This document shows positions 9,420 to 41,842 of a stretch of 64,000 bases of DNA, in pieces. The stretch comes from Austwickia sp. TVS 96-490-7B (lineage in GTDB: Bacteria; Actinomycetota; Actinomycetes; Actinomycetales; Dermatophilaceae): the NCBI RefSeq assembly GCF_019331795.1, contig NZ_JAHPZL010000008.1, positions 124,001 through 188,000 of the forward strand, given 5' to 3'. Within the stretch, counting starts at the first letter, position 1, and every line of letters starts with the position of its first letter. Below the pieces are notes generated by a model. It worked only from the letters and a program-made list of their open reading frames with translations. It was not told the origin of the DNA and made no database searches. Made by a program: the position numbers and the translations under genes.

Positions 9420-10748
9420 GTGACTACGCAGTACTGCCTGGAGTGGCCGGATCTCCCGGCGGCCCAACAGCCGACCTGGCCCGACCCGGACGCCCTCGCG
9501 ACTGCGAGGGCGTCCTTGGCGACGTTCCCGCCGTTGGTCTTTGCTGGCGAATGTGACATTTTGCGCCATCGTCTCGCTGAGGCGGCCCGAGGCGAGGCCT
9601 TCGTGTTAATGGGAGGCGACTGCGCGGAGACCTTCGCGGCGGCGACGGCTGACAATATCCGGGACCGGGTGAAGACGATCCTGCAGATGGCTGCGGTGCT
9701 CACCTATGGATCAAGCACCCCCGTGGTGAAACTGGGTAGGTTGGCTGGCCAGTACGCCAAACCGCGCAGCAAAGACACCGAGCAACGTGACGACGAGGTC
9801 CTTCCGGCGTACCGGGGGGATATGGTCAACGATTTCGCCTTCACTCCTGAGGCGCGCCAGCCTGATCCGGACCGGCTGGTTCGGGCTTATCACGCTAGTG
9901 CCGCGACATTGAACCTGGTCCGGGCGTTTACCCAGGGCGGTTTCGCTGATCTGCGGCATGTCCACGATTGGAACCGCGGTTTTATCGCAAACTCGGCCAA
10001 CCGACGGTATGAGCGGATGGCTAATGACATCGACAAGGCCATGCGGTTCATGACGGCCTGCGGTGCGGACTTCGAGGCGATGCGGCGGGTCGATGTGTGG
10101 GCCAGCCATGAGGCGCTGCTCCTGGACTACGAGAAGCCGTTGACGCGGATTGATTCGCGCACCGGTCAGCCTTATGGCACCAGCGGTCATTTCTTGTGGG
10201 TCGGTGAGCGCACCCGTGATGTAGCGGGTGCGCATGTGGATTTCGTGTCGAGGATTCGTAATCCCATCGGCGTGAAGCTAGGCCCGACAGCGAAGGCCGA
10301 TGATCTGTTGCGGCTCGCTGATCGGGTTGATCCGGATCGGGAACCGGGTCGGTTGTCGATCATCGTGCGGATGGGGGCACATCGTGTCCAGGAGGGCTTG
10401 CCGCCACTGGTTGAGGCCGCACGGGCAGAGGGTCTGCAACCCACCTGGATCTGTGATCCCATGCACGGCAACACCTTTGAATCAGCCAGCGGGTATAAAA
10501 CCCGACGCTTCGATGACATCGTCGCTGAAGTGCGTGGTTTCTTCGATGTGCATCGTGGGTTGGGGAGTTGGCCTGGGGGGATCCATGTGGAACTCACCGG
10601 CAACGATGTGACTGAGTGCCTCGGAGGTTCCATTGATCTGCATGATGAGGACCTGCAGCGGCGTTATGAGACGGCCTGTGATCCTCGGTTGAATCATCAG
10701 CAGAGTCTGGAGCTGGCGTTCATCGTCGCCGAGATGTTGGCTTCCTGA
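9420..10748 (+). CDS. aroG: 3-deoxy-7-phosphoheptulonate synthase, class II
   Basis: First step of the shikimate pathway: condenses phosphoenolpyruvate and erythrose 4-phosphate to DAHP. A 442-residue class II (plant/mycobacterial) enzyme starting at GTG 9420. Conserved blocks include FVLMGGDCAETF (metal-binding cysteine), VVKLGRLAGQYAKPRS, DLRHVHDWN, IRNPIGVKLGP and WICDPMHGNT. The N-terminal extension that mediates aromatic amino-acid feedback in Mycobacterium is short here. No leader peptide or attenuator was seen in the 64 bp upstream. Confidence 0.93.
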   Translation: MTTQYCLEWPDLPAAQQPTWPDPDALATARASLATFPPLVFAGECDILRHRLAEAARGEAFVLMGGDCAETFAAATADNIRDRVKTILQMAAVLTYGSSTPVVKLGRLAGQYAKPRSKDTEQRDDEVLPAYRGDMVNDFAFTPEARQPDPDRLVRAYHASAATLNLVRAFTQGGFADLRHVHDWNRGFIANSANRRYERMANDIDKAMRFMTACGADFEAMRRVDVWASHEALLLDYEKPLTRIDSRTGQPYGTSGHFLWVGERTRDVAGAHVDFVSRIRNPIGVKLGPTAKADDLLRLADRVDPDREPGRLSIIVRMGAHRVQEGLPPLVEAARAEGLQPTWICDPMHGNTFESASGYKTRRFDDIVAEVRGFFDVHRGLGSWPGGIHVELTGNDVTECLGGSIDLHDEDLQRRYETACDPRLNHQQSLELAFIVAEMLAS

Positions 10749-10752
10749 CCGT

Positions 10753-11349
10753 ATGAGCAGCCACCCGGATTTCGCCGACGAGAGGCAGTTGCCCCCTGGG
10801 CAGCGACTCGCCGAGGAGATGCGTGTGGTGCATTACGGTCGGGTGCCGCGCATCGATGTGTCGCGCTGGTCTGTGACCGTGTCAGGGGCGACTGCTGACG
10901 GGGAAAATCATCAGCTCAGTTACGACGATCTGGTAGAGATGCCACAGATCACCGTGGTTGCTGATCATCATTGCGTGTCGCGGCGGACGGTGCAGGATGT
11001 CACTTGGGGTGGGGTGCCGGTCCGGGAGCTAGTACGTCGGTTTCCACCTACGGCCGATGCTGCGCATGCATTGGTGTGTGCTTGGTATGGATATAGCGCG
11101 AGTGTCACGGTCGCTGACTTGGAGGAGCCGCGAGCTCTGTTGGCGCTGCAGATGAATGGTCAGGATTTAGCTCCTGAGCACGGCTGGCCGTGTCGGTTGG
11201 TGTTGCCGCACCTGTATGGCTGGAAGGGCCCTAAATGGTTGTTGCAGATCGAATATCTGCGGGCGCCGAAACGGGGTTTCTGGGAGCAGCACGGTTATCA
11301 CCTCACTGGTGATGTATGGCGTGAGGAGCGTTACGCCCACCAGGAATAA
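10753..11349 (+). CDS. Molybdopterin-dependent oxidoreductase (sulfite oxidase/YedY-like), small
   Basis: A 198-residue protein matching the oxidoreductase molybdopterin-binding fold. The cofactor cysteine is in HHCVSRRTVQDVTWGGV (normally HCVxxW...W.GV), and further family blocks are YGYSASVTVADL, PEHGWPCRLVLPHLYGWKGPKWLLQIE and GFWEQHGYH. There is no signal peptide, no heme domain and no dimerisation domain, so this is the short cytoplasmic type. It starts 4 nt after the DAHP synthase stop and is probably cotranscribed; no functional link is known. Substrate unknown. Confidence 0.88.
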   Translation: MSSHPDFADERQLPPGQRLAEEMRVVHYGRVPRIDVSRWSVTVSGATADGENHQLSYDDLVEMPQITVVADHHCVSRRTVQDVTWGGVPVRELVRRFPPTADAAHALVCAWYGYSASVTVADLEEPRALLALQMNGQDLAPEHGWPCRLVLPHLYGWKGPKWLLQIEYLRAPKRGFWEQHGYHLTGDVWREERYAHQE

Positions 11350-11374
11350 GTGGGGGTCTGGGATGGGGAGACGG

Positions 11375-12331
11375 TCAGCCCCCTGCGTCGTGGTGTAGTG
11401 ATTCGACCGGCGGTTCTGGGGGTGGTGCGGATCGTCTGCGGCGTTGGGAGAGTCGAGGGCCGATCTCCACGACGTACATGGCGGACAGCACCAACGCGCC
11501 CCCTAGCACTACCCGCCAGGTCAGATGTTCCCCGCCCCAGGCGATCGCGAAGATCGCGGCAAAGACTGGTTCAGTGGTCATCACGATCGCAGCTCTGGTC
11601 GCTGGCATGTGCGCCTGACCCCAGGTTTGGGCCCACATTGCGAAGGCGCCGCAGATCAGTGCCAGGTAGAGGACAATGCCCCACTGGGTGGGACTGTGCG
11701 GCAGCTGAATCCCTCGAGGACCGGTGGCGATCAGGCTGATCATCGCGACCGCGCCCACCTGCACCGCAGATAATCCCAGTGCGGTGTCTCCACGAGAGAT
11801 GGCCCCCAGGCCGAGGATGTGCATCGCGTAGACAGCGGCTGAAGCCAAAGTGAGGGTCTCGCCGAGGCCCCATCCCACCGAGCCGAGGCAAAGGATGGCC
11901 AAGCCGATGACGGCGAGGGAACTGGCCACCCAGGTTTCGGTGCGAAGGCGTTGGCGAAGTCCGACCGCCGCTAGCACCGGGGTGAGGATGACATAGAGAC
12001 CGGTGAGGAAGCCGGAGCGAGTGGCGCTGGTGTGCTCCAGTCCGACGGTCTGCAGGAGTTGCGCGACGCCGTACAACGCGCCTAGGCCGAGTCCTGCTAT
12101 CAGGGACCGGCGGGGCAACGCCCGCACTGATCGCCACAACAGCGGGACCATCACCGCGGCAGCGATGCTGAATCGCACCGCGAGAAAATCAGCGGAAGGG
12201 ATCGTTGCGACCAGGTCTCGCGTCAAGGTGAACGTTGACCCCCACGCCGTGGTCACCGCGAGCAGCAGCAAGGTGGCGGCTCGGGTATGGGTGGGTGCGT
12301 GCGTGGGGGAGTCCGCGACGCCAGAGGTCAT
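11375..12331 (-). CDS. EamA/DMT-family transporter
   Basis: A drug/metabolite-type exporter or permease with 318 residues and about ten hydrophobic helices in two EamA repeats (first near residues 20-150, second 160-295). Typical features are TTAWGSTFTLTRDLV in helix 1 and the WGEHLTWRVVLGGALVLSAMYVVE end of repeat two. The tail is basic and hydrophilic. It begins 11 bp after the PASTA kinase stop codon on the same strand and is likely cotranscribed with it. Substrate unknown. Confidence 0.87.
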   Translation of the reverse strand: MTSGVADSPTHAPTHTRAATLLLLAVTTAWGSTFTLTRDLVATIPSADFLAVRFSIAAAVMVPLLWRSVRALPRRSLIAGLGLGALYGVAQLLQTVGLEHTSATRSGFLTGLYVILTPVLAAVGLRQRLRTETWVASSLAVIGLAILCLGSVGWGLGETLTLASAAVYAMHILGLGAISRGDTALGLSAVQVGAVAMISLIATGPRGIQLPHSPTQWGIVLYLALICGAFAMWAQTWGQAHMPATRAAIVMTTEPVFAAIFAIAWGGEHLTWRVVLGGALVLSAMYVVEIGPRLSQRRRRSAPPPEPPVESLHHDAGG

Positions 12332-12342
12332 GACGAGAGGCC

Positions 12343-14424
12343 TTAGTAAACGCGCAGGACGATCGTGGATCCGCGTGGCACCTGCTCACCGGCGGAGGGG
12401 GTGGTGGACAGCGCCATCCCGAAAAGTCCACCTGCGATGCGGGAGATGTCGATCTTGAACCCAGCGGATTGGAGCATCGCACTCGCTTCGGATTCCGTGC
12501 GGCCTCGGACTTCGGGTACGGCGACCAGGTCGGGTCCTTTGCTGACGGTGAACGTGACTTGCCCGGAGCGGAACAATGTGCCGGAGGACGGGGCTTGTTT
12601 GATGACGTTGCCTTTGGGAACGTCATTGCTGTATTCCTCGCCAGCGACCTGGACGCTCAAGCCTTTCTTGTTCAACACGGCGGCTGCTTCGGCGTACGGC
12701 TTGCCCGTGAAGTCTTGGACCTCGATGGGTTGGCGGCCTTTGCTGACAGTCATCGCGACCGGGGTGCCTGGTTTGAGTTCGCTGCCGGGTTTGGGGTCGC
12801 TGGAGATCACTTGGCCGGAGGCAGCGGTCTCGTTGAAGGTTTCGCTGATTTGGCCGACAGACAGCCGGGCGTCGGTGATGGCTTGTTGTGCCTCGTCTTT
12901 AGTCTTACCGACTAGTTCGGGCACTTTCACCCGCTCTTTGCCTTTGGAGACCTGGAGCTTGACTGTGGCCGCCCGATGCACCTGCGTGCCTTGTTCGGGA
13001 TCGGTGTGGATGACTTGACCGGTAGGGGCGGTTTCCGAGAAGACTTGTTCGACCTCGGCGTCCAGTTCTAGTCCGGTCAGGGCAGATCGAGCAGCGCTTT
13101 CTTCCATCCCTACCAGTGCGGGTACGGCGCGTTGTGATCCGGGACCGTAGAAGACATACCAACTGATGCCGCCGGCGAGGGCGATCAAGACCACCAGGAT
13201 GACGGCGACGATCGGGATGGCTTGGTTACGGCGTCGGCGCCGAGTGCGCAGCGCCCCGGTTCGGCTCGGTGGCGGTGGGGTGGGCTCGCTGTCAGAGTCA
13301 TCCGGTGGCGCGGCCACAGCGACGGCTTGTCGCCCGGTGGCCCAGCCTTCGCCAGCGTCGTCGACATTCCACAGTTGATCGGCTTTCCAGGAGCTCTCGA
13401 CCTGGGTGGGCAACGGGGTAACTGGTCGGGTTTTTTGGACGGCAGTTTCCTGAGCGGACGGGCCGATGAGGGAGGACATGTCGGTGGTCCGGTTGGAGAC
13501 GGTGTCCGGGTCCTTCGTGGACAGTCCGGTCGCGGCGCGGATGCGCCGAGAAGGTGCGGTGTCGAGTTGCTCGGGGCTCAACGTGGTTTCGACGCGCAAC
13601 ACTTCGTCCCGATAGGCGCCGGCGTCGCGGGGGCGATCATTGCGGTCTCGATGGACGGCCATCGCGACGAGGGCGTCCAGCTCGGGGGCAAGTTCGGGGC
13701 GAACACTGCTGGGCACGGGGATCTGTCCGTGGACGTGCCGGTAGGCGATCTGCACCATCGTCTCGCCCTCGACGGCGCGCTGACCGGTCAGCATCTCAAA
13801 GAGCACCAGTCCAGTGGCGTACACGTCTGCGCGGGCGTCAATGTCGCCCTGTTCGATCTGTTCTGGGGACAGGTACGCAGCGGTACCCATCAGCGTCTGG
13901 GTGGCGTGGGTGGCTTGAGATACGTCGATGGCTCGGGCCAGTCCGTAGTCAGCGACCTTGACGACTCCCGCGGTCGAGATGAGGACGTTTTCGGGTTTGA
14001 CGTCGCGGTGGACGATCCCAGCGCGGTGCGCGGCAGTCAAGCCGTTGAGCATCTGCGCGGTAATGCGCAGGGCTTCACGTGGTGCGAGTGCGCCGTGCCG
14101 AGTGATGAGGTCTCGGAGCGTGAGGCCGGGGACGAGTTCCATGGCGAGGAAGACGACATCGCCGTCTTGGCCTTGGTCGAAGACGCTCACCACGTGGGGG
14201 TGGGTGAGTTTTGCTGCGGATCGGGCTTCCCGGCGGAACCGGGCGACGAAGGCCTCGTCAATGGACAGTTGGCGGTGCATCACCTTGAGTGCGACATCGC
14301 GGCCGAGACGCTCGTCGAGTGCGACGTACACCGTGGCCATGCCGCCGTCAGCGAGGTGTCGGAGCACGCGGTAGCGGCCGTCGACGACACGGCCGACGAG
14401 CAGGTCCCCTGTGCTGTCGGTCAT
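12343..14424 (-). CDS. Ser/Thr protein kinase with four PASTA domains
   Basis: A membrane receptor-like kinase that senses peptidoglycan fragments and lipid II and controls cell-wall growth and division. The 693 residues are: Gly-rich loop LADGGMATVY near 22, the VAIK-type lysine in VALKVMH, catalytic HRDVKPENVL, and ADYGLA in place of DFG. APE-type SPEQ follows, then a linker to about 395, one transmembrane helix (AIPIVAVILVVLIALAGGISWYV, split by no gap) and four PASTA repeats (starts near 433, 497, 563, 629). The gene follows the LysM/transglycosylase gene on the same strand, which fits a cell-wall role. It lies close to an Rv2175c homologue, a known partner of PknL in Mycobacterium, though mycobacterial PknL lacks PASTA domains. 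Confidence 0.92.
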   Translation of the reverse strand: MTDSTGDLLVGRVVDGRYRVLRHLADGGMATVYVALDERLGRDVALKVMHRQLSIDEAFVARFRREARSAAKLTHPHVVSVFDQGQDGDVVFLAMELVPGLTLRDLITRHGALAPREALRITAQMLNGLTAAHRAGIVHRDVKPENVLISTAGVVKVADYGLARAIDVSQATHATQTLMGTAAYLSPEQIEQGDIDARADVYATGLVLFEMLTGQRAVEGETMVQIAYRHVHGQIPVPSSVRPELAPELDALVAMAVHRDRNDRPRDAGAYRDEVLRVETTLSPEQLDTAPSRRIRAATGLSTKDPDTVSNRTTDMSSLIGPSAQETAVQKTRPVTPLPTQVESSWKADQLWNVDDAGEGWATGRQAVAVAAPPDDSDSEPTPPPPSRTGALRTRRRRRNQAIPIVAVILVVLIALAGGISWYVFYGPGSQRAVPALVGMEESAARSALTGLELDAEVEQVFSETAPTGQVIHTDPEQGTQVHRAATVKLQVSKGKERVKVPELVGKTKDEAQQAITDARLSVGQISETFNETAASGQVISSDPKPGSELKPGTPVAMTVSKGRQPIEVQDFTGKPYAEAAAVLNKKGLSVQVAGEEYSNDVPKGNVIKQAPSSGTLFRSGQVTFTVSKGPDLVAVPEVRGRTESEASAMLQSAGFKIDISRIAGGLFGMALSTTPSAGEQVPRGSTIVLRVY

Positions 14425-34438: not shown

Positions 34439-34477
34439 CGTGGCCGGTCGGGTAACTCCATCACCCGACCGGCCACG
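34439..34477. terminator. Bidirectional hairpin terminator, glpK / lanthipeptide operon
   Basis: Perfect 15-bp inverted repeat (arms 34439-34453 and 34463-34477, CGTGGCCGGTCGGGT) with 9-nt loop between the convergent glpK and histidine kinase genes; it overlaps the kinase's stop codon at 34461. Confidence 0.72.
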
Positions 34478-35717
34478 TCGCTGTCAGCACCCACCACCCG
34501 TCATCAGTACAAACCGTGACCTGACCGCCCACACTCTCCACGCGAGCGCACAACAGATTCAGGCCAAAACCTGACGGGGGCGAGGTCGGCGTCGTACAGG
34601 GTTCGGCGATGAGATTGCGCACCTCCACCACTAACTCGGTGTCTGTGGTCAGTGCCATCACGGAGCAGGTGCTGCCCGGCGGTGCGTACTTGGCGACATT
34701 GGTGGTCGCTTCTCGTAGCACCGCTTCGGCAGCACTTGATACCGAATACGACAACTGGCGGTGGACCCGATCCTCCACGACGACGGTCACACCGATCTGT
34801 TCCAGGTAGGCCTGTGCCTGTGCGAGCGCCACCGGCAGGCTGATTTGAAGGGGCGAGCGGGGGACAGGCCCCGGGGGTTCCTCATCGTCGGGGGTGTCGA
34901 AGAGCGCCATAAGACGCCGCATCTCACCTAGTCCTCGCCGGGCGGTATCGGCGAGCTCTTCAAAACGTCGGTGAAGGTCTGGGTCCGTCGACTCTTGCGC
35001 TGCGACCCCGGCTTCCATGCAGATGCGGGTCAATTCGTGGGCGACAACGTCGTGAAGTTCCTGACTCAACTGGTGCCGTTGGCGTTCGTATCGCAGGTGC
35101 AACTGCGCCGCTCGGGCGGCGGCGGCTTCTTCGCGGGCGACTGCTGCCAGCACTAACGTTTCGTTTTCTCGTTGGGCCTGTTGTTGGCGTGTCGCGATGA
35201 CCCAGATCACTCGGCCGAGAGCTGCGACCATGATGGTCGTCACGATCAGTTCGGTGTGATCCCGGCCAGGACTGTCAGATCTCGCTGTCGCTGTCGCCAC
35301 CATCAGCAATGGAATCACCATGGATAGCAGACGGGCCCAGTCAAGGACTCCAGCAGCCAGTCCTAACAGCAGCAACATTGCTAGATGTGGATCTGAATGG
35401 TCAGGCAGGAACGGCAGCGCTGCCACTAGCACGAGGAATGGCAGCGGCGCCCATCGAGGGCGAAATGACAAGGCCAACCCGGTGCCACCAAAACCGGAGA
35501 GCACCCAGAGTCGCACAGCGGTGTGCCATCCCAGACCTGTCGCCATCAAGTCCATCACCATCACCCGGACGTCGTCGATCATCCCGGCGACAGTCAGCAC
35601 TGACACCAGCCAAGCCAACCACTGCGGCAACTGGTGGACCGGGCCGCGTAAGCGGCTACCGGACGACGCCGGAACGGAAAGCGGAGATGACGAGTTGGAC
35701 ACGATCACGACTGTCAA
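34461..35717 (-). CDS. Two-component sensor histidine kinase (NarL/LiaS-type) of lanthipeptide operon
   Basis: A 418-residue membrane kinase. The N-terminal third has about four to six hydrophobic helices between residues 30 and 175 with little extracellular sequence, so it may sense within the membrane. A coiled coil leads to the HisKA_3 dimerisation motif LSQELHDVVAHELTRIC (phospho-acceptor histidine in ELHDVV). The HATPase domain has AVLREATTNVAKYAP as N-box and SGFGLNLLCARVESVGG as G-box. Its frame overlaps the response-regulator gene by about 60 bp, implying coupling. It is last in the lanthipeptide operon and probably responds to the peptide or to cell-envelope state (inferred). Confidence 0.88.
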   Translation of the reverse strand: MTVVIVSNSSSPLSVPASSGSRLRGPVHQLPQWLAWLVSVLTVAGMIDDVRVMVMDLMATGLGWHTAVRLWVLSGFGGTGLALSFRPRWAPLPFLVLVAALPFLPDHSDPHLAMLLLLGLAAGVLDWARLLSMVIPLLMVATATARSDSPGRDHTELIVTTIMVAALGRVIWVIATRQQQAQRENETLVLAAVAREEAAAARAAQLHLRYERQRHQLSQELHDVVAHELTRICMEAGVAAQESTDPDLHRRFEELADTARRGLGEMRRLMALFDTPDDEEPPGPVPRSPLQISLPVALAQAQAYLEQIGVTVVVEDRVHRQLSYSVSSAAEAVLREATTNVAKYAPPGSTCSVMALTTDTELVVEVRNLIAEPCTTPTSPPSGFGLNLLCARVESVGGQVTVCTDDGWWVLTATWPVG

Positions 35718-36303
35718 ATTTCTGCATCAGACCAGACAGGTAGTACTTGATGGTGGATTCGGCGAGCATCAACTCATCTGCCATTTCTTTGTTGCTGAGG
35801 CCGGTGCATAACTTTTCGAGGACTTGGCGTTCTCGGTCGGTGAGTTCTACTGAGTGGTGTGGGGGAGGAGTCATCCGGCCAGCTGTTTCGATGAGGTAGC
35901 GGGTGACCTGCGGGTCGATAGAGAGCTCTTCCTCAGCGACGTCCCGCACGGCCTGGAGGATACGGCGCGGGACGCAGTCTTTGACCAGATAGCCGCTGGC
36001 TCCGGCAAGTAACGCCGGAGCCACATAGCGATCGCTGAGATGTGCGGTGACAACGAGCACCCGGGTCCTGCACTGTCTGGCTCTCAGCTGACGGGTCACC
36101 TCAATGCCATCCAGGTCCGGCATTTGCAGATCCAACAACAAGACGTCTGGATCATGCGCGGCCACCTGGTCGAGGGCATCGCGACCGTCGATGGCTTCAG
36201 CGACCACCTCGATATCCCCATCAGCGCTGAGATACGTGCGGAGCGCATTCCGGACGAACGCTTCGTCGTCTGCGACGACCGCAGTGATGTGGCGGCCCAC
36301 CAT
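35656..36303 (-). CDS. LuxR/NarL-family response regulator
   Basis: A 215-residue regulator paired with the downstream histidine kinase. ATG 36303 has GAGGAG upstream. The receiver domain has VVADDEAFVRNALRTYL (acidic pair), phospho-acceptor aspartate in VLLLDLQMPDLDG, the TAHLSD switch and KDCVP lysine. The output HTH is LTDRERQVLEKLCTGLSNKEMADELMLAESTIKYYLSGLMQKF. It follows the LanKC gene by 160 bp in the same direction. It probably controls the lanthipeptide promoter; no binding site is proven. Confidence 0.92.
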   Translation of the reverse strand: MVGRHITAVVADDEAFVRNALRTYLSADGDIEVVAEAIDGRDALDQVAAHDPDVLLLDLQMPDLDGIEVTRQLRARQCRTRVLVVTAHLSDRYVAPALLAGASGYLVKDCVPRRILQAVRDVAEEELSIDPQVTRYLIETAGRMTPPPHHSVELTDRERQVLEKLCTGLSNKEMADELMLAESTIKYYLSGLMQKFDSRDRVQLVISAFRSGVVR

Positions 36304-36462: not shown

Positions 36463-39012
36463 TTACGACGCTCCGAGCGTCGACAGAGTCACATCGAGCA
36501 GATCACCATCGCAGGACAGTCCCCGCAATGCCACTAAGATTCCCGCATTTCCGGTGGCGAGGTCCGCAGTGAGCCGACACCCATCCCCACACACCATGGC
36601 ACCCTCCCCAGTGGTGCCGCGACCGAGGGCCTGGCGTTCCAGGCAACGATGCAACCGTGCCGTGCCGGTCGCTGCCGCCTCAGAATCGCCCATGCAGGCA
36701 CTCAACCGGGTGAAACCCCACACCAGCCCGGCGTACCCGTTGAACAAACCAGGGAACATCGCACCTGGCGCGTCGCAAGCGTTCCTCAGCTCGGGCAGCC
36801 TCCCTGCTAGGCCCGGTGGCCACAAGCTGTCAGGCACCAGCGGCAGTATCAACCCCCACCCTGCGCTTCCGGTCGCCACATATGACAGCCCTCGTCGTCC
36901 TTGATCGGCGAGCATGCGACCCTCGATGGTGAGATAACCCTCGAATTCTCGACGTAACGCCACTGCGCAAGCGTCCTCAAGGCGCCCTACGTCGACCCCG
37001 GGCACTTCGCGCGCCATATAGAACAACCATGCCAGACCCATATTGCCATATAGCAAACCAGTCGACTGGAAGCGCGGGTGATTCCCGCGATTCTGCCTGA
37101 CTTGCGTGATGAAGCCCGAGTTTTCTACGTAGTCTCGCGCCAACTGCCGTATCACCTCTACGACCCGAGAAAGAATCTCTGGGTGATCACGCACCGCATG
37201 CAATCGCACCAAGCCGAGTAGCACTCCTGGAAGCCCACTGTGAACGCTAGTTCCCGACACTGCGAGCAATTCCGTTAACCGATCATCCACCATCACCTGC
37301 ACTTCATTCGGATGATCCTCTTCGGTCGCTAAGAGATCGCCCACCAAGCCGTCCATCAATCCCAGATGGGTTGTCATGCCGTCTGGGATATCCGGGATTC
37401 GACCGCAGATCCGATCGATCACTGCGGCACCGCTGCCTAGCCCGGTCCACCCCGCGGTGAGCGCCCGATGATGCACGGGATAGCGGCGCCCCGGTTGGTG
37501 GTGGGCATCGACCGCGTCGGTGATGCCGCGTCGTAACACTGCCTCCCAGTGGCGATCCTCGAGGCGAGGTAGCGGACGTACGTAACCGACAGGACGCAGC
37601 GGGGTGTCATGCTGCGACATATCGTGGGTGATGGACTCGATCAGATCGAGCAGGGCGTCGGTGGCGGGGCGGCCGGGACGTAACCAGGGATGCGTCCGAT
37701 CCTGGCGGGCGAGCCGCAGGACTGTGTGGAGATGATCCGGTTCCAGCACGCTTTCCGCCCGGGAGATCCACAGCGTCGTCGCTGCGATCCGGGTCAGGCC
37801 ATAGTGATCGTGGCGGCAGGGAGAGTGCACGCCGCGCAAGCCGAACCCCAGAGCCGCCATGGGCTGTTCACACGGGGGTGCATCGATCGGGAGGGCATTT
37901 TCGAAGTCGATCAGTGAGACGTCCATCGTGTCGGGATCCACCAGCACGTTTCCTGGATGGATGTCCAGGTGCGCCCAGCCCTGCTGATGAAGGCCATCCA
38001 GGATGGCGCGCAGCGACGCGAGAACCCGCTGACAGGATCTCGCCCAACGGTCGGCGATGTCGTCGTCAACCTGCCGATGGGGAGCACCGTGCAACGACCA
38101 GATCTGCATCGGGACACCTGGCTGGCACGTCTCCACCAGGTAGTGGTGCTCCCAGTGATGCCCGGCGTACAGGATGGTGGGCACCGCTCGTCCCACGTCG
38201 ACGCTGGTCAGCGCAATTCGTTCCCGATCGAGTCGAGTGACGGCGTCTGTGCCGGTCCGGTCCAACCCGGCGTGCGGACGCGCTTCTTTCACCACCACTT
38301 CCGTCGACTCGTAGGTGCCGCGGTAGATTCCACCGGCGTTTGAGAAAGAGATCGCGGAGTCGATGGTGAAGGGCAGTTGTGCTCGGCTGTGCCCAGTCAC
38401 GTCGGGGAGCCATGAGGTCAAAATGGGGGGAATGGGAGCCCAATCGGGGACCGTAAACGTCAATGATCGGCTGTCCTCCACTGCATGTCCATGCGGGTCT
38501 CGGAGCCTGACATCCGGTCCGTCAGTCGTTTGGTACGGACGAAATACGCCGTACCGCAGGAAGATCGGAGCTTTCTTCCACCGTCGGTCCGACAAGATGT
38601 AAGGGCCGTCAGTGTCGCCGAGGTGTTCTTCTAATGCCGGCAGGAGCTGGGGTAGCTGGTCAGCAGTGGGAAAGAACGCAATGAACTTCCCGGCGTGTCG
38701 TCGGTCGCAGTTTTTGCTATTGCGCCATAGGAATTTTTCTCGGTTGGGGAGGTATTTGAAGCTGACCTGCAAGTCCTGAGCGACGACCGCAGCCCGAGAG
38801 AGCACGGACTGAGCTTGCTCTTCGACAGCGCTGACATGGATTTTCCAGCCCTGATGCGGGGTGTCTGCATCACAGGGACGATGAAACACCCAGTCAGGGC
38901 TGCACCACACATCCCAGCCGGGGCGGGACGGCACGTGGAAAGGACGCGTCGTCACTGTCGGCGGGCAGTAAAACTCGTCGGATGCGGTCAAGAAGGGGAC
39001 TTCGCTGAACAT
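36463..39012 (-). CDS. lanKC: Class III lanthipeptide synthetase (LanKC)
   Basis: Trifunctional enzyme that phosphorylates Ser/Thr of a precursor peptide, eliminates phosphate and cyclises cysteine onto dehydroamino acids, forming lanthionine or labionin. 849 residues. The N-terminal 200 are the lyase domain (KFLWRNSKNCDRRHAGKFI, FLRYGVFRPY). The kinase domain spans about 225-490, with VVVKEARPH lysine, catalytic HLDIHPGNVLVD and the metal-binding VSLIDFENA. The C-terminal half is a LanC-like barrel (SVHSGLPGVLLGLV, STGLLYGNMGLAWL, GLFNGYAGLVWGF, LATGNAGILVAL) without the Cys and Cys-His zinc ligands, which separates class III from class IV LanL. It is flanked by permease and response-regulator genes. 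Confidence 0.92.
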   Translation of the reverse strand: MFSEVPFLTASDEFYCPPTVTTRPFHVPSRPGWDVWCSPDWVFHRPCDADTPHQGWKIHVSAVEEQAQSVLSRAAVVAQDLQVSFKYLPNREKFLWRNSKNCDRRHAGKFIAFFPTADQLPQLLPALEEHLGDTDGPYILSDRRWKKAPIFLRYGVFRPYQTTDGPDVRLRDPHGHAVEDSRSLTFTVPDWAPIPPILTSWLPDVTGHSRAQLPFTIDSAISFSNAGGIYRGTYESTEVVVKEARPHAGLDRTGTDAVTRLDRERIALTSVDVGRAVPTILYAGHHWEHHYLVETCQPGVPMQIWSLHGAPHRQVDDDIADRWARSCQRVLASLRAILDGLHQQGWAHLDIHPGNVLVDPDTMDVSLIDFENALPIDAPPCEQPMAALGFGLRGVHSPCRHDHYGLTRIAATTLWISRAESVLEPDHLHTVLRLARQDRTHPWLRPGRPATDALLDLIESITHDMSQHDTPLRPVGYVRPLPRLEDRHWEAVLRRGITDAVDAHHQPGRRYPVHHRALTAGWTGLGSGAAVIDRICGRIPDIPDGMTTHLGLMDGLVGDLLATEEDHPNEVQVMVDDRLTELLAVSGTSVHSGLPGVLLGLVRLHAVRDHPEILSRVVEVIRQLARDYVENSGFITQVRQNRGNHPRFQSTGLLYGNMGLAWLFYMAREVPGVDVGRLEDACAVALRREFEGYLTIEGRMLADQGRRGLSYVATGSAGWGLILPLVPDSLWPPGLAGRLPELRNACDAPGAMFPGLFNGYAGLVWGFTRLSACMGDSEAAATGTARLHRCLERQALGRGTTGEGAMVCGDGCRLTADLATGNAGILVALRGLSCDGDLLDVTLSTLGAS

Positions 39013-39083: not shown

Positions 39084-40472
39084 TTAGGTCGCTGACGCTG
39101 TGACCAGCGGACGGCGCCACGCCAATGCTCCACACGAGGTCACGATGAGGATGGTCGCTGCTCCGCCGACGAGCGCTACCGTCACCGACCCGGTGACGTC
39201 CAACCCGGCCAACTCCACCGGCCGGCCCCACCGAGACAGCGACCACGACATCAAGGCCCACATGCCCACCCCAGATGTCAGGGCAATCAACACCGCCGTC
39301 GCCACATAGATCACGGATTCACTCAAAAAGACCGCCATGCTCGCTCCTGGGGATGCGCCAGCGATCCGCAGGTGAGTGACGTCGTCGATGCGTCGTTGTG
39401 AAGCCATGAACACCACCGCTGCACTGCCGATCGCTCCGATCACCCCCACCGGAGTGAGCATGAGGACACCGTCAAACACATTGATAGGGTCGCCTGACGG
39501 GCCGGTGATATTTCTGGCGCACGTCGTCATCATGTCAAAGCAGGCAAACATCCCAATCCCCATCATCAAGGGGATGACCGTCGCGGCGGATTGAGTGGCT
39601 CGACTCATCGCGATATGCCGGGCGACCCGCCAGGGCGTCCAGCGCGTCAGTCCAGGCAGTGCTGTCCACAACCGCATGACCGGTCCTAGATAGAGCGGCG
39701 CGCCTAAGGCCAACGTGATGACCAGCATCCATCCGGCAGGCAGGGCGAGCACCACTCCCATCAGCGCTGGCTCTGCCGGAGCTTTGCGGGCCATGTCATC
39801 CGTGGACATGAGCAGCGGCACCAGCACGGGAATCTGGACGAATGCCACGAACAGCAGCGCTGGGAAGGCCCGGTAGCGACTCGGTGGCGCTGACCGGTCA
39901 GCTTCGCGACCAGTGAGCGGAGACGTCCTCGATGCTCTGACTGCTGGTCGAATCCCCGCGAGGACCCCCCACAACGAGACCAACAGCATCGAACAAAGCA
40001 CCCCAGCGACGCTCGACAATCCAGCCTGGTCGGCCAACCGTACGGCGGAACCACGACTCATCATCCGCTGCGCTGAATCGTGGAAAGGCACAGCGATGAC
40101 ACCGCCGACCACTGACCCGGTGACGCAGGCGAGGACGACCTGCATGGTGAAAACCCCAATGACCTGGCGGGGGCTCGCGCCAGCTAACCGCCACAAAGCG
40201 TGCACCTCACCGAGTTGCGTGGTCAACGTGCTGAGCACCGTCGCCACGATGAGCACAGCCGGTATGCCAGACAAAAACAGCAGGTTGCTGGTCATTTTGA
40301 GCATCACATCCCGGCCGTACGGCGTACTAAACGCTGCGGGATCCGATGCGGCAGCGGTGAACATTGCCGTGAAACACAGGGTCGTAAACAGCGACACCGC
40401 AGCGGCAACGAGGAGGACCCCGATCCAGACGAGACGGTGTTCTACGGCGTCATGCCATGCCAGGTCAAGCAT
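39084..40472 (-). CDS. FtsX-like ABC transporter permease (lanthipeptide export/immunity)
   Basis: A 462-residue membrane protein. ATG 40472 overlaps the end of the ATPase gene by 8 bp. About ten hydrophobic helices occur in two FtsX-type halves, each with the conserved loop after the first extracellular helix (LWRLAGASPRQVIGVFTMQ and HLRIAGASPGASMAVFLSE). Such permeases with a LolD/MacB-type ATPase export peptides or lipids or give self-protection from antimicrobial peptides. In this operon it is the likely exporter or immunity pump for the two precursor-derived peptides (inferred). Confidence 0.87.
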   Translation of the reverse strand: MLDLAWHDAVEHRLVWIGVLLVAAAVSLFTTLCFTAMFTAAASDPAAFSTPYGRDVMLKMTSNLLFLSGIPAVLIVATVLSTLTTQLGEVHALWRLAGASPRQVIGVFTMQVVLACVTGSVVGGVIAVPFHDSAQRMMSRGSAVRLADQAGLSSVAGVLCSMLLVSLWGVLAGIRPAVRASRTSPLTGREADRSAPPSRYRAFPALLFVAFVQIPVLVPLLMSTDDMARKAPAEPALMGVVLALPAGWMLVITLALGAPLYLGPVMRLWTALPGLTRWTPWRVARHIAMSRATQSAATVIPLMMGIGMFACFDMMTTCARNITGPSGDPINVFDGVLMLTPVGVIGAIGSAAVVFMASQRRIDDVTHLRIAGASPGASMAVFLSESVIYVATAVLIALTSGVGMWALMSWSLSRWGRPVELAGLDVTGSVTVALVGGAATILIVTSCGALAWRRPLVTASAT

Positions 40473-41202
40473 CGATATGCTCCGCTGTTTCAGCGAACAG
40501 GGCATCTGCGCTGGGCCGTTCTAGGATCTGACTGACCACGCCGTCTCTGAGGACAATCGCCCGGTCAGCGCGGGCAGCGGCTTGGAGATCATGAGTCACC
40601 ATCACGACAGTGACACCGTCACTGGTCAGATCCTTCAATGCGTCGAGGACAAGTCGACCATTCGTGGTATCTAATGCTCCGGTCGGTTCGTCGGCAAACA
40701 CGACGCTCGGCTGGTCATATACAACCCGAGCGATCGCAGCTCGCTGCTGCTGCCCACCAGAAAGACTTCCGGTACGTTGCGCCATCTGTCGCCCCAAACC
40801 AAACCTTTCCAGTAAGTGAGCGGCCCGATTCTTGTCCACTCTTTTGCCGGCGAAACGTGCCGGAAGGAGAACATTCTCTAAAACTGGCAATGAGGGGATC
40901 AGATTGTAGGATTGGAAGACGAAACCCACGCCACTGCGGTGCACGGCGGACACCTGCGCTTGAGACGCCCTGGTGATATCCCGCCCTAACAGCCGCACTG
41001 CCCCCTGGCTGGCCTGGACAAACCCCGCCAGTGCGTGCAACAGCGTCGACTTCCCGCTGCCCGAAGGTCCGACCACAGCCACCAGCTCTCCTGGTGACGC
41101 CGAGACGTTCACCCCATGCAGGACCGCAGTGGGATTTGCTGACCGGGCGTCGTAGGTGACATGAAGATCATGACACTCACTGACAAATGCATAGTTGGAC
41201 AC
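40465..41202 (-). CDS. ABC transporter ATP-binding protein (lanthipeptide export/immunity)
   Basis: A 245-residue nucleotide-binding subunit of the LolD/MacB group. Walker A is VVGPSGSGKST, the Q-loop FVFQSYNLIPSLPV, the signature LSGGQQQR, Walker B VVFADEPTGALD, and the H-loop VTHD. Start: GTG 41202 has GGAAGG at good spacing; an in-frame ATG at 41235 lies directly after the hairpin at 41244-41279 and has no ribosome site. It is translationally coupled to the FtsX-like permease. The gene is somewhat less GC-rich than its neighbours, in keeping with the accessory block. Confidence 0.88.
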   Translation of the reverse strand: MSNYAFVSECHDLHVTYDARSANPTAVLHGVNVSASPGELVAVVGPSGSGKSTLLHALAGFVQASQGAVRLLGRDITRASQAQVSAVHRSGVGFVFQSYNLIPSLPVLENVLLPARFAGKRVDKNRAAHLLERFGLGRQMAQRTGSLSGGQQQRAAIARVVYDQPSVVFADEPTGALDTTNGRLVLDALKDLTSDGVTVVMVTHDLQAAARADRAIVLRDGVVSQILERPSADALFAETAEHIDA

Positions 41203-41243
41203 GTAGCGCCTTCCAAACAGCAATGCTTTATTCATAGTGAAAA

Positions 41244-41279
41244 CTTTGTGCCCGGCGAATCGGTTCGCCGGACACAAAG
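41244..41279 (-). terminator. Hairpin between precursor genes and transporter genes (partial terminator/attenuator)
   Basis: 16-bp arms (41244-41259 and 41264-41279) with one G-U-type mismatch, a 4-nt loop, and TTTTC directly downstream in the minus-strand reading. It sits 48 bp after the second precursor gene and just before the ABC ATPase gene, where partial termination would give more precursor than enzyme mRNA. Confidence 0.65.
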
Positions 41280-41326: not shown

Positions 41327-41419
41327 TCAGCTGCACCAAATGGAGAGAATGCTCCATGCGGCCTCAGTCTCATCGATGTCCATGGTCGGAAGCTCTTGAT
41401 AAGCTAGGACGTCACTCAT
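41327..41419 (-). CDS. lanA2: Class III lanthipeptide precursor 2
   Basis: A 30-codon gene. ATG 41419 has a near-perfect GGAAAGGAGG site 6-7 nt upstream. The leader begins MSDVLAYQELPTMD and lines up with class III leaders such as labyrinthopeptin's (ILELQ-type helix then NLDVE). The C-terminus is EAAWSILSIWCS, where S-I-L-S-I-W-C is the Ser-x2-Ser-x2-Cys pattern that LanKC enzymes turn into labionin. It shares 18 of 29 aligned residues with precursor 1, 76 bp upstream. The core would be only about 8-9 residues. Cleavage site and modified product are inferred. Confidence 0.85.
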   Translation of the reverse strand: MSDVLAYQELPTMDIDETEAAWSILSIWCS

Positions 41420-41495
41420 TGTCACCCTCCTTTCCGGAGATAGTGTCAATGTCGATGTGGAAAATCGAATGCTGACGCGGCGAGTAGATATGCCG

Positions 41496-41585
41496 TCAGC
41501 AGGCAATGGACAGGAGGCTCCACGCGGCCTCTTCGTCATCGGTCTCGACCGTGGGCAGGTTCTGTTGGGACAGCACGTCGATCAT
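41496..41585 (-). CDS. lanA1: Class III lanthipeptide precursor 1
   Basis: A 29-codon gene, first of the operon. ATG 41585 follows GAGGAGGTGAAACCC. The leader starts MIDVLSQQNLPTVET, the class III leader-helix pattern, and the end is EEAAWSLLSIAC, again Ser-x2-Ser-x2-Cys with the cysteine as last residue. Conserved positions between the two precursors include DVL, Q, LPT, D, EAAWS, LSI and C. The final cysteine means the labionin ring would close on the terminal residue. Far shorter than the 35-50 residues usual for this class, yet the ribosome site, paralogue and adjacent LanKC leave little doubt that it is real. Confidence 0.87.
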   Translation of the reverse strand: MIDVLSQQNLPTVETDDEEAAWSLLSIAC

Positions 41586-41676
41586 GGGTTTCACCTCCTC
41601 GAGTGGAGAGATGCGCAGGATGTCTCCCGGCATCACTCACGCTAGGGGGACTCGCCATATCGGCAGTACCGCCGAA
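41586..41676 (-). promoter_or_regulatory. Presumed promoter region of the lanthipeptide operon
   Basis: The only space between the dyad downstream of parC and the first precursor gene. A TAGCGT near 41641 could be a -10 on the minus strand, with a poor -35. A response-regulator site is expected here but none can be named with confidence. Confidence 0.35.
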
Positions 41677-41720
41677 CGGATCAACCTGGACTAGCCGTTT
41701 GGCCAGTCCAGGTTGATCCG
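41677..41720. terminator. Strong perfect dyad between parC and the lanthipeptide operon
   Basis: Arms 41677-41692 and 41705-41720 are exact 16-bp complements (CGGATCAACCTGGACT); after one mismatch GCC/GGC extends the stem around a 4-nt loop. There is no T-run. Best read as the parC terminator that insulates the operon, or as an operator at its promoter. Confidence 0.6.
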
Positions 41721-41842
41721 CGCTGCAGGACACCTCGGTCAGTGCACCACCATGCCCACGGTCACCTCGGGGCTGCTGACCCCATCGACACGTCTAGTAC
41801 GGAGCTCCAAGCGCCTGTGACATCCTCACCAGGTCATATCGC

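Follow-up and report, generated by a model that had tools for sequence, protein, structure and literature searches.

Two paralogous candidate precursors of small class III lanthipeptides in a compact lanKC operon of Austwickia sp. TVS 96-490-7B

Which peptides would be modified by the class III lanthipeptide synthetase encoded in the genome of Austwickia sp. TVS 96-490-7B, and how small are they? The window, that is, the whole stretch of 64,000 nucleotides that was analysed, holds two very small genes on the minus strand. Precursor gene 1 (41496–41585) encodes the 29-aa peptide P0001 and precursor gene 2 (41327–41419) encodes the 30-aa peptide P0002. Translation of the minus strand from 41585 gave MIDVLSQQNLPTVETDDEEAAWSLLSIAC and from 41419 MSDVLAYQELPTMDIDETEAAWSILSIWCS, the two frames that a first-pass annotation had described. 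Its count of 18 identical residues out of 29 was confirmed by alignment. The strong ribosome sites it had claimed were found as AGGAGG, ending 8 nt before the ATG of P0001 and 6 nt before that of P0002. In-frame GTG codons are located 9 nt (P0001) and 6 nt (P0002) upstream of the ATGs, directly next to the ribosome site, which makes them less suitable as starts. The likely cores lie within AAWSLLSIAC in P0001 and AAWSILSIWCS in P0002. Cysteine is the last residue of P0001, as had been noted for one of the peptides, and P0002 ends with Cys-Ser.

Chance occurrence was assessed with pattern searches. The strict combination of leader, ring motif and ribosome site was present at 2 of 1123 possible starts (22–45 aa, both strands, 64-kb window), and these were the ATGs of P0001 and P0002. 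No match was obtained in 60 dinucleotide shuffles of the window. A looser pattern without the ribosome site matched five starts, all within the two genes, with a mean of 0.05 starts and a maximum of 2 in 60 shuffles. Over 87 aligned nucleotides the two genes show 29 differences, distributed as 7, 4 and 18 over the three codon positions. Eighteen or more changes at third positions had a binomial probability of 0.0014 against an even spread, a bias that fits coding constraint. The pair is real and more than a product of chance. From these sequence features, P0001 and P0002 are very probably paralogous and presumably translated precursors of small class III lanthipeptides.

The synthetase LanKC (P0003, 849 aa) is encoded at 36463–39012 on the minus strand. 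It comprises the phosphothreonine lyase-like, kinase and LanC-like cyclase regions of a class III synthetase. RamC_N was detected above its cut-off with 177.7 bits, and the APH cut-off was also passed. Lower than the respective cut-offs were the scores for the equivalog 'LanKC' NF038151 (523.4 vs. 575 bits, residues 7–829) and for the Pfam models LANC_like (20.4 vs. 23.2) and Pkinase (19.2 vs. 31.7). These low scores count against the class III reading, though RamC_N and APH were passed; the NF038151 cut-off is an annotation threshold and not a mechanistic feature. SalKC was the best solved relative (1.5e-93), with an i-E of 9.6e-16 for the cyclase region. The solved structure 8sao matched with 2.6e-58 and was taken as ThurKC, since the residue numbers in the available part of PMC10604976 fall on it. 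Residues of ThurKC were mapped onto P0003 via the LanKC of Paenibacillus profundus (L155) and the printed alignment. All eight lyase residues were present (K57, H59, K86, K100, K109, D142, R153 and R182); they are closely conserved in characterised labionin formers, as described in the same partial text (PMC10604976). A DFE motif was found at D369-F370-E371. Of the ten mapped leader-groove residues, which in ThurKC touch the leader or determine its shape, eight were identical and one was conservatively exchanged (F306 to Y291), whereas F194 to T185 was not conservative. ThurKC Gln270, which is involved in contacts of the activation segment, corresponds to Thr255.

Both peptides share the leader motif M-x2-V-L-x-x-Q-x-L, so that the class III-type leader proposed in the first pass holds; the motif residues are spaced like the leader contacts of ThurA1. 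The available text of PMC10604976 includes Met-22, Val-19, Leu-18 and Gln-15 among the helix contacts between leader and ThurKC; Leu-16 of ThurA1 matters by mutation, and the exchange L-13A was without effect on dehydration. Residues M1, V4, L5, Q8 and L10 of P0001 and P0002 align with the ThurA1 positions −22, −19, −18, −15 and −13. The sole changed position is −16, where Leu is replaced by Q7 in P0001 and Y7 in P0002. This register places Ser23 at +1 and yields the bare core SLLSIAC or SILSIWCS. A core motif S-x2-S-x2-5-C is present once in each peptide (SLLSIAC in P0001, SILSIWC in P0002), unlike the two motifs of SapB/AmfS-type precursors. The distance from the leader Gln to the first ring Ser is 15 residues in both peptides and 11–18 in 17 other precursors compared, the values for L173 (11 or 14) and L064 (12 or 15) varying with the motif start that is counted. 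The leader-to-ring distance is ordinary, and the shortness lies in everything that follows it. Together with LanKC in the same operon, the leader and core motifs support the claimed linkage of the precursors to lanKC.

Five genes follow the precursors on the same strand. An ABC transporter ATPase (40465–41235, PF00005; start uncertain, ATG 41235 or GTG 41202) is succeeded by an FtsX-type ABC permease of 473 aa (39084–40505, PF02687; about 10 hydrophobic segments by hydropathy), LanKC, a NarL/LuxR-type response regulator of 215 aa from the ATG at 36303 (35656–36303, PF00072 and PF00196) and a HisKA_3 sensor histidine kinase (34461–35717, PF07730). No protease was present among the operon genes. 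A sigma-70 promoter was discarded, as the scan gave 1 match vs. 1.9 expected. On the 3′ side of precursor gene 2, a 16-pair hairpin followed by TTTT was identified at 41244–41279 of the minus strand (dG −27.9, z −7.2); it is likely a (partial) terminator that sets the two precursor genes apart from the remaining operon genes. This arrangement, small ORFs upstream of the operon and then a hairpin with a T-run, is also what would be seen if the ORFs were regulatory leader peptides (attenuators) ahead of the ABC/LanKC genes. That explanation is very improbable: no other ORF of the window fits the LanKC substrate pattern, the leader and the ring motif are those of LanKC substrates and were kept while the rest diverged, and a hairpin after the lanA genes is also compatible with a simple mechanism for making more precursor than enzyme. 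A second hairpin of 21 pairs (41670–41728, minus strand; dG −45.7, z −10) is located between precursor gene 1 and the adjacent gyrA/parC-like gene. It has no T-run and was absent from the list of the terminator scan, and it possibly marks the upstream boundary of the transcript. A 1-kb search revealed no further copy of its region in the genome.

The flanking genes were named gyrA/parC and glpK from reading their translations and are taken here as such. The gap between glpK and gyrA is about 7.4 kb, compared with about 130 bp in two of three congeners (G010 and G011). In the third congener, G012, the gap is about 1.3 kb and holds other ORFs. No LanKC was found with P0003 in these three genomes; G010 and G011 gave no match and G012 a 57-residue match in the kinase region. 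Compared with two of the three congeners, the operon is an extra compact block of 7.3 kb. The seven genes were therefore gained or lost as one unit, from which it would follow that no further local pathway gene exists. A foreign origin was considered on base composition and rejected: only the ATPase gene (58.5% GC) and lanA2 (51.6%) were clearly lower than the window (63.7%), with lanKC at 61.9% and gyrA at 63.4%. Base composition is silent on gain vs. loss of the unit.

For the ring chemistry, cleavage, export and function of the candidate peptides, we infer the following course. The first ten leader residues would fold as an amphipathic helix and bind in this form to the LanKC encoded in the operon. 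The enzyme would phosphorylate Ser23 and Ser26 and eliminate the phosphate, which turns both into dehydroalanines. Cys29 would then close one bicycle of the labionin type, or a lanthionine with one dehydroalanine left unreacted beside it. In both peptides, the leader ends in an acidic block (DDEE or DETE) followed by Ala-Ala-Trp. The microvionin protease MicP2 cleaves after acidic residues, according to the accessible part of PMC10885120, and four M1-peptidase matches over the cut-off were obtained in the host genome. A protease encoded elsewhere, plausibly an M1 peptidase, may cut in the acidic part after DDEE or DETE, followed by trimming to a product of about 7–11 residues. The FtsX-type ABC transporter would serve in export of the peptides or in self-protection, and control or sensing of the peptides would fall to the two-component system.

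Of the earlier proposal that Ser-x2-Ser-x2-Cys denotes a labionin, the compatibility of the motif with this ring stands. If P0001 and P0002 are precursors, a labionin is only somewhat more probable than a lanthionine plus dehydroalanine. As described in the available parts of PMC7268733 and PMC11251773, the outcome of S-x2-S-xn-C varies among class III peptides between lanthionine and labionin. This speaks for the less probable alternative, in which the peptides are LanKC substrates but end up with a simple lanthionine, from Cys29 to Ser26 or Ser23, and a leftover dehydroalanine. Against this product, the peptide part of nocaviogua comprises 8 residues, of which those at 2, 5 and 8 make up the avionin, at the same spacing and linked to each other (partial text of PMC10435860); we read this as S-x2-S-x2-C. 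The complete set of lyase residues of labionin formers in P0003 points in the same direction, but these residues act in dehydration and not in cyclisation.

Relatives of LanKC and of the peptides were searched at several taxonomic levels. P0003 matched in 30 of 186 genomes of the family (E 1e-3; many of them kinase-only), 21 of 396 genomes of the order (E 1e-20) and 10 of 396 genomes of the phylum (E 1e-30), each including its own genome. The other matches showed 29%–47% identity, some nearly over the full length; the LanKCs listed were well below 50% identical to P0003, and the higher figures were confined to short stretches. No match was found in phages, and 73 plasmid records all had less than 60% identity. 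A search of contigs with P0003 alone gave 16 stretches, none of them a relative, and an alignment-led contig scan confirmed at least 584 stretches. Among the best 80 of these at least 584 stretches, Cryobacterium breve (L107) was top by E-value (33% identity, 5e-122), followed by Streptococcus orisasini (30%, 3e-104). The precursor candidate of C. breve, MIANVLAFQALTVESEEL, has a similar leader; with 47 aa and two motifs it is not short. Two large ORFs after its lanKC (9892–12452) resemble M16-type peptidases by eye, as in Firmicutes class III clusters. On a Melissococcus plutonius plasmid (L103, 6932–9569), a LanKC-like gene was annotated as two CDS and is followed by a 44-aa precursor candidate with two motifs. 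A common origin with the permease of the Melissococcus plasmid was rejected at 16% identity and E 2e-4. On a Lactobacillus helsingborgensis plasmid (L104, 9672–9976), lanKC is followed by two candidate class III precursors that are rich in His.

A two-row model of P0001 and P0002 recovered exactly these two peptides in their own genome and no orthologue among the 185 other genomes of the family. Thirty-five of the 185 matched at E up to 1, the best with E 0.004 inside a frame of 1143 aa. The peptides are without cross-species conservation among these 185 genomes, which counts against the precursor reading.

Other LanKC loci were screened for short precursors. With a narrow pattern, 7 of 31 loci yielded a candidate, and at one of the seven the pattern also picked up spurious ORFs; wider screens followed, with candidates in 89 of 124 LanKC loci; candidates are pattern matches and not proven genes. 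The 35 loci without a candidate by pattern include L064, L067 and L089, which carry short candidates by another screen, and the short fragments L092, L096–L099, L101 and L102, which hold little flanking sequence. Eleven ORFs of 27–29 aa with one C-terminal motif were located in five loci (L109, L149, L173, L181 and L183). With these candidates and the 8-residue peptide part of nocaviogua in the available part of PMC10435860, the suggestion that the pair is among the smallest class III lanthipeptides was not supported. Separately, three tandem ORFs of 43–48 aa next to a LanKC gene (L069, 4967–5759, G038) have leaders like TIDILALDLLPETQPT and cores with 3–4 Cys and few Ser.

The genes near the short candidates bear on a further alternative. 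In L064, twin 28-aa candidates were detected, a GNAT adjoins LanKC and a second flavoprotein match is about 6 kb away; second flavoprotein matches occurred in 3 of 10 genomes compared. A GNAT is near LanKC in L149 and a ketosynthase in L173, and these three loci look like lipolanthine loci by gene content. L109 has a flavoprotein match about 12 kb from the locus, putatively on the same contig. Given these neighbourhoods of short candidates and a core size and spacing equal to those of nocaviogua as partially described, a lipolanthine-type product can be envisaged for Austwickia, with the terminal Cys decarboxylated to avionin and the N-terminus acylated by enzymes encoded elsewhere. It is nevertheless very improbable. 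The only PF02441 flavoprotein match of the host genome, a frame of 469 aa, is about 95 kb from the operon, and no second one was found there as a LanD candidate. The operon, consisting of the ABC pair, LanKC, response regulator, histidine kinase and precursors, contains no GNAT, ketosynthase or other acyl-transfer and PKS/FAS gene, and the Cys of P0002, in contrast to that of P0001, is not C-terminal as encoded. Elsewhere, twin one-motif candidates of 31 and 32 aa beside LanKC (L089, 10885–11122, G341) have neighbouring ORFs that resemble PKS/NRPS on visual inspection; G341 has one flavoprotein match, far off, and the locus may represent a hybrid without LanD.

New are the minimal core with one motif in the absence of clustered decarboxylase or lipid genes and its occurrence as a pair of paralogues, one of which continues for a residue beyond Cys. 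The setting differs, too, with an FtsX-type ABC transporter and a two-component system. Such a peptide did not appear in any title or abstract among the matches listed, in a search that covered few subscription journals. A bolder and rather unlikely proposal is that co-transcribed paralogous precursors yield a stripped-down, non-lipidated pair of single-labionin peptides of about 7–10 residues each, the smallest free labionin peptides known, and that the pair acts as a signal to the operon's own histidine kinase and response regulator. If the ring forms, LanKC would have very short substrates whose carboxyl end is free and in which an ordinary leader is followed by almost nothing but the ring; they would be useful for the enzymology of LanKC and for designing short stapled peptides. 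Genome miners can miss such cases, as P0003 is under curated cut-offs. A RODEO survey from 2020 drops ORFs below 30 aa, according to the available part of PMC7268733, and by this rule longer ORFs of 46 and 70 aa with the same stops would be kept instead.

The pair looks like a pared-down version of a known bacterial peptide class and not like a wholly new one. Lipolanthines (microvionin, nocavionin, goadvionin and nocaviogua) have the same class III-type synthetase and a single ring system. Their ring is avionin, in which the former Cys lacks its terminal carboxyl, and they bear a long acyl chain. In contrast, the operon in Austwickia has no lipid genes, the one flavoprotein match of the genome is distant and one peptide ends with Cys-Ser. 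Labyrinthopeptin/SapB-type systems likewise have LanKC and a leader with L-Q-x-[LM]. Two loci that we take to be SapB-like (L093 and L119) encode precursors of 39–42 aa with two ring motifs, whereas P0001 and P0002 have one motif in 29–30 aa. Class III peptides with a single S-(X)2-S-(X)2-5-C are described for Firmicutes in the available part of PMC8960859, namely the bacinapeptins and paenithopeptins (Pre_24 family). Bacinapeptins and paenithopeptins resemble P0001 and P0002 in having one motif, but their products are larger (paenithopeptin A′ with m/z 949.5, doubly charged), and their leaders bear Q-A-(A/V)-(D/E) for M16B proteases, which is absent from P0001 and P0002 by eye. A total of 179 single-cysteine precursors were predicted computationally in the accessible text of PMC11251773, which names lipolanthines as the only characterised single-cysteine lanthipeptides. 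The nearest counterpart in layout is L183 from Amycolatopsis pittospori (9508–9834). Three tandem 29-aa candidates beside its LanKC have W-S before one motif (candidate cores with W-S-S) and one residue after Cys, with an ABC ATPase, an FtsX-type permease and a LuxR-type regulator nearby. No GNAT, ketosynthase or flavoprotein was detected among the four ORFs scanned at this locus, and the two flavoprotein matches of the genome are apparently on another contig. L183 differs in the spacing S-x2-[ST]-x4-C, in a MacB periplasmic domain on the permease and in a LanKC that is 30% identical.
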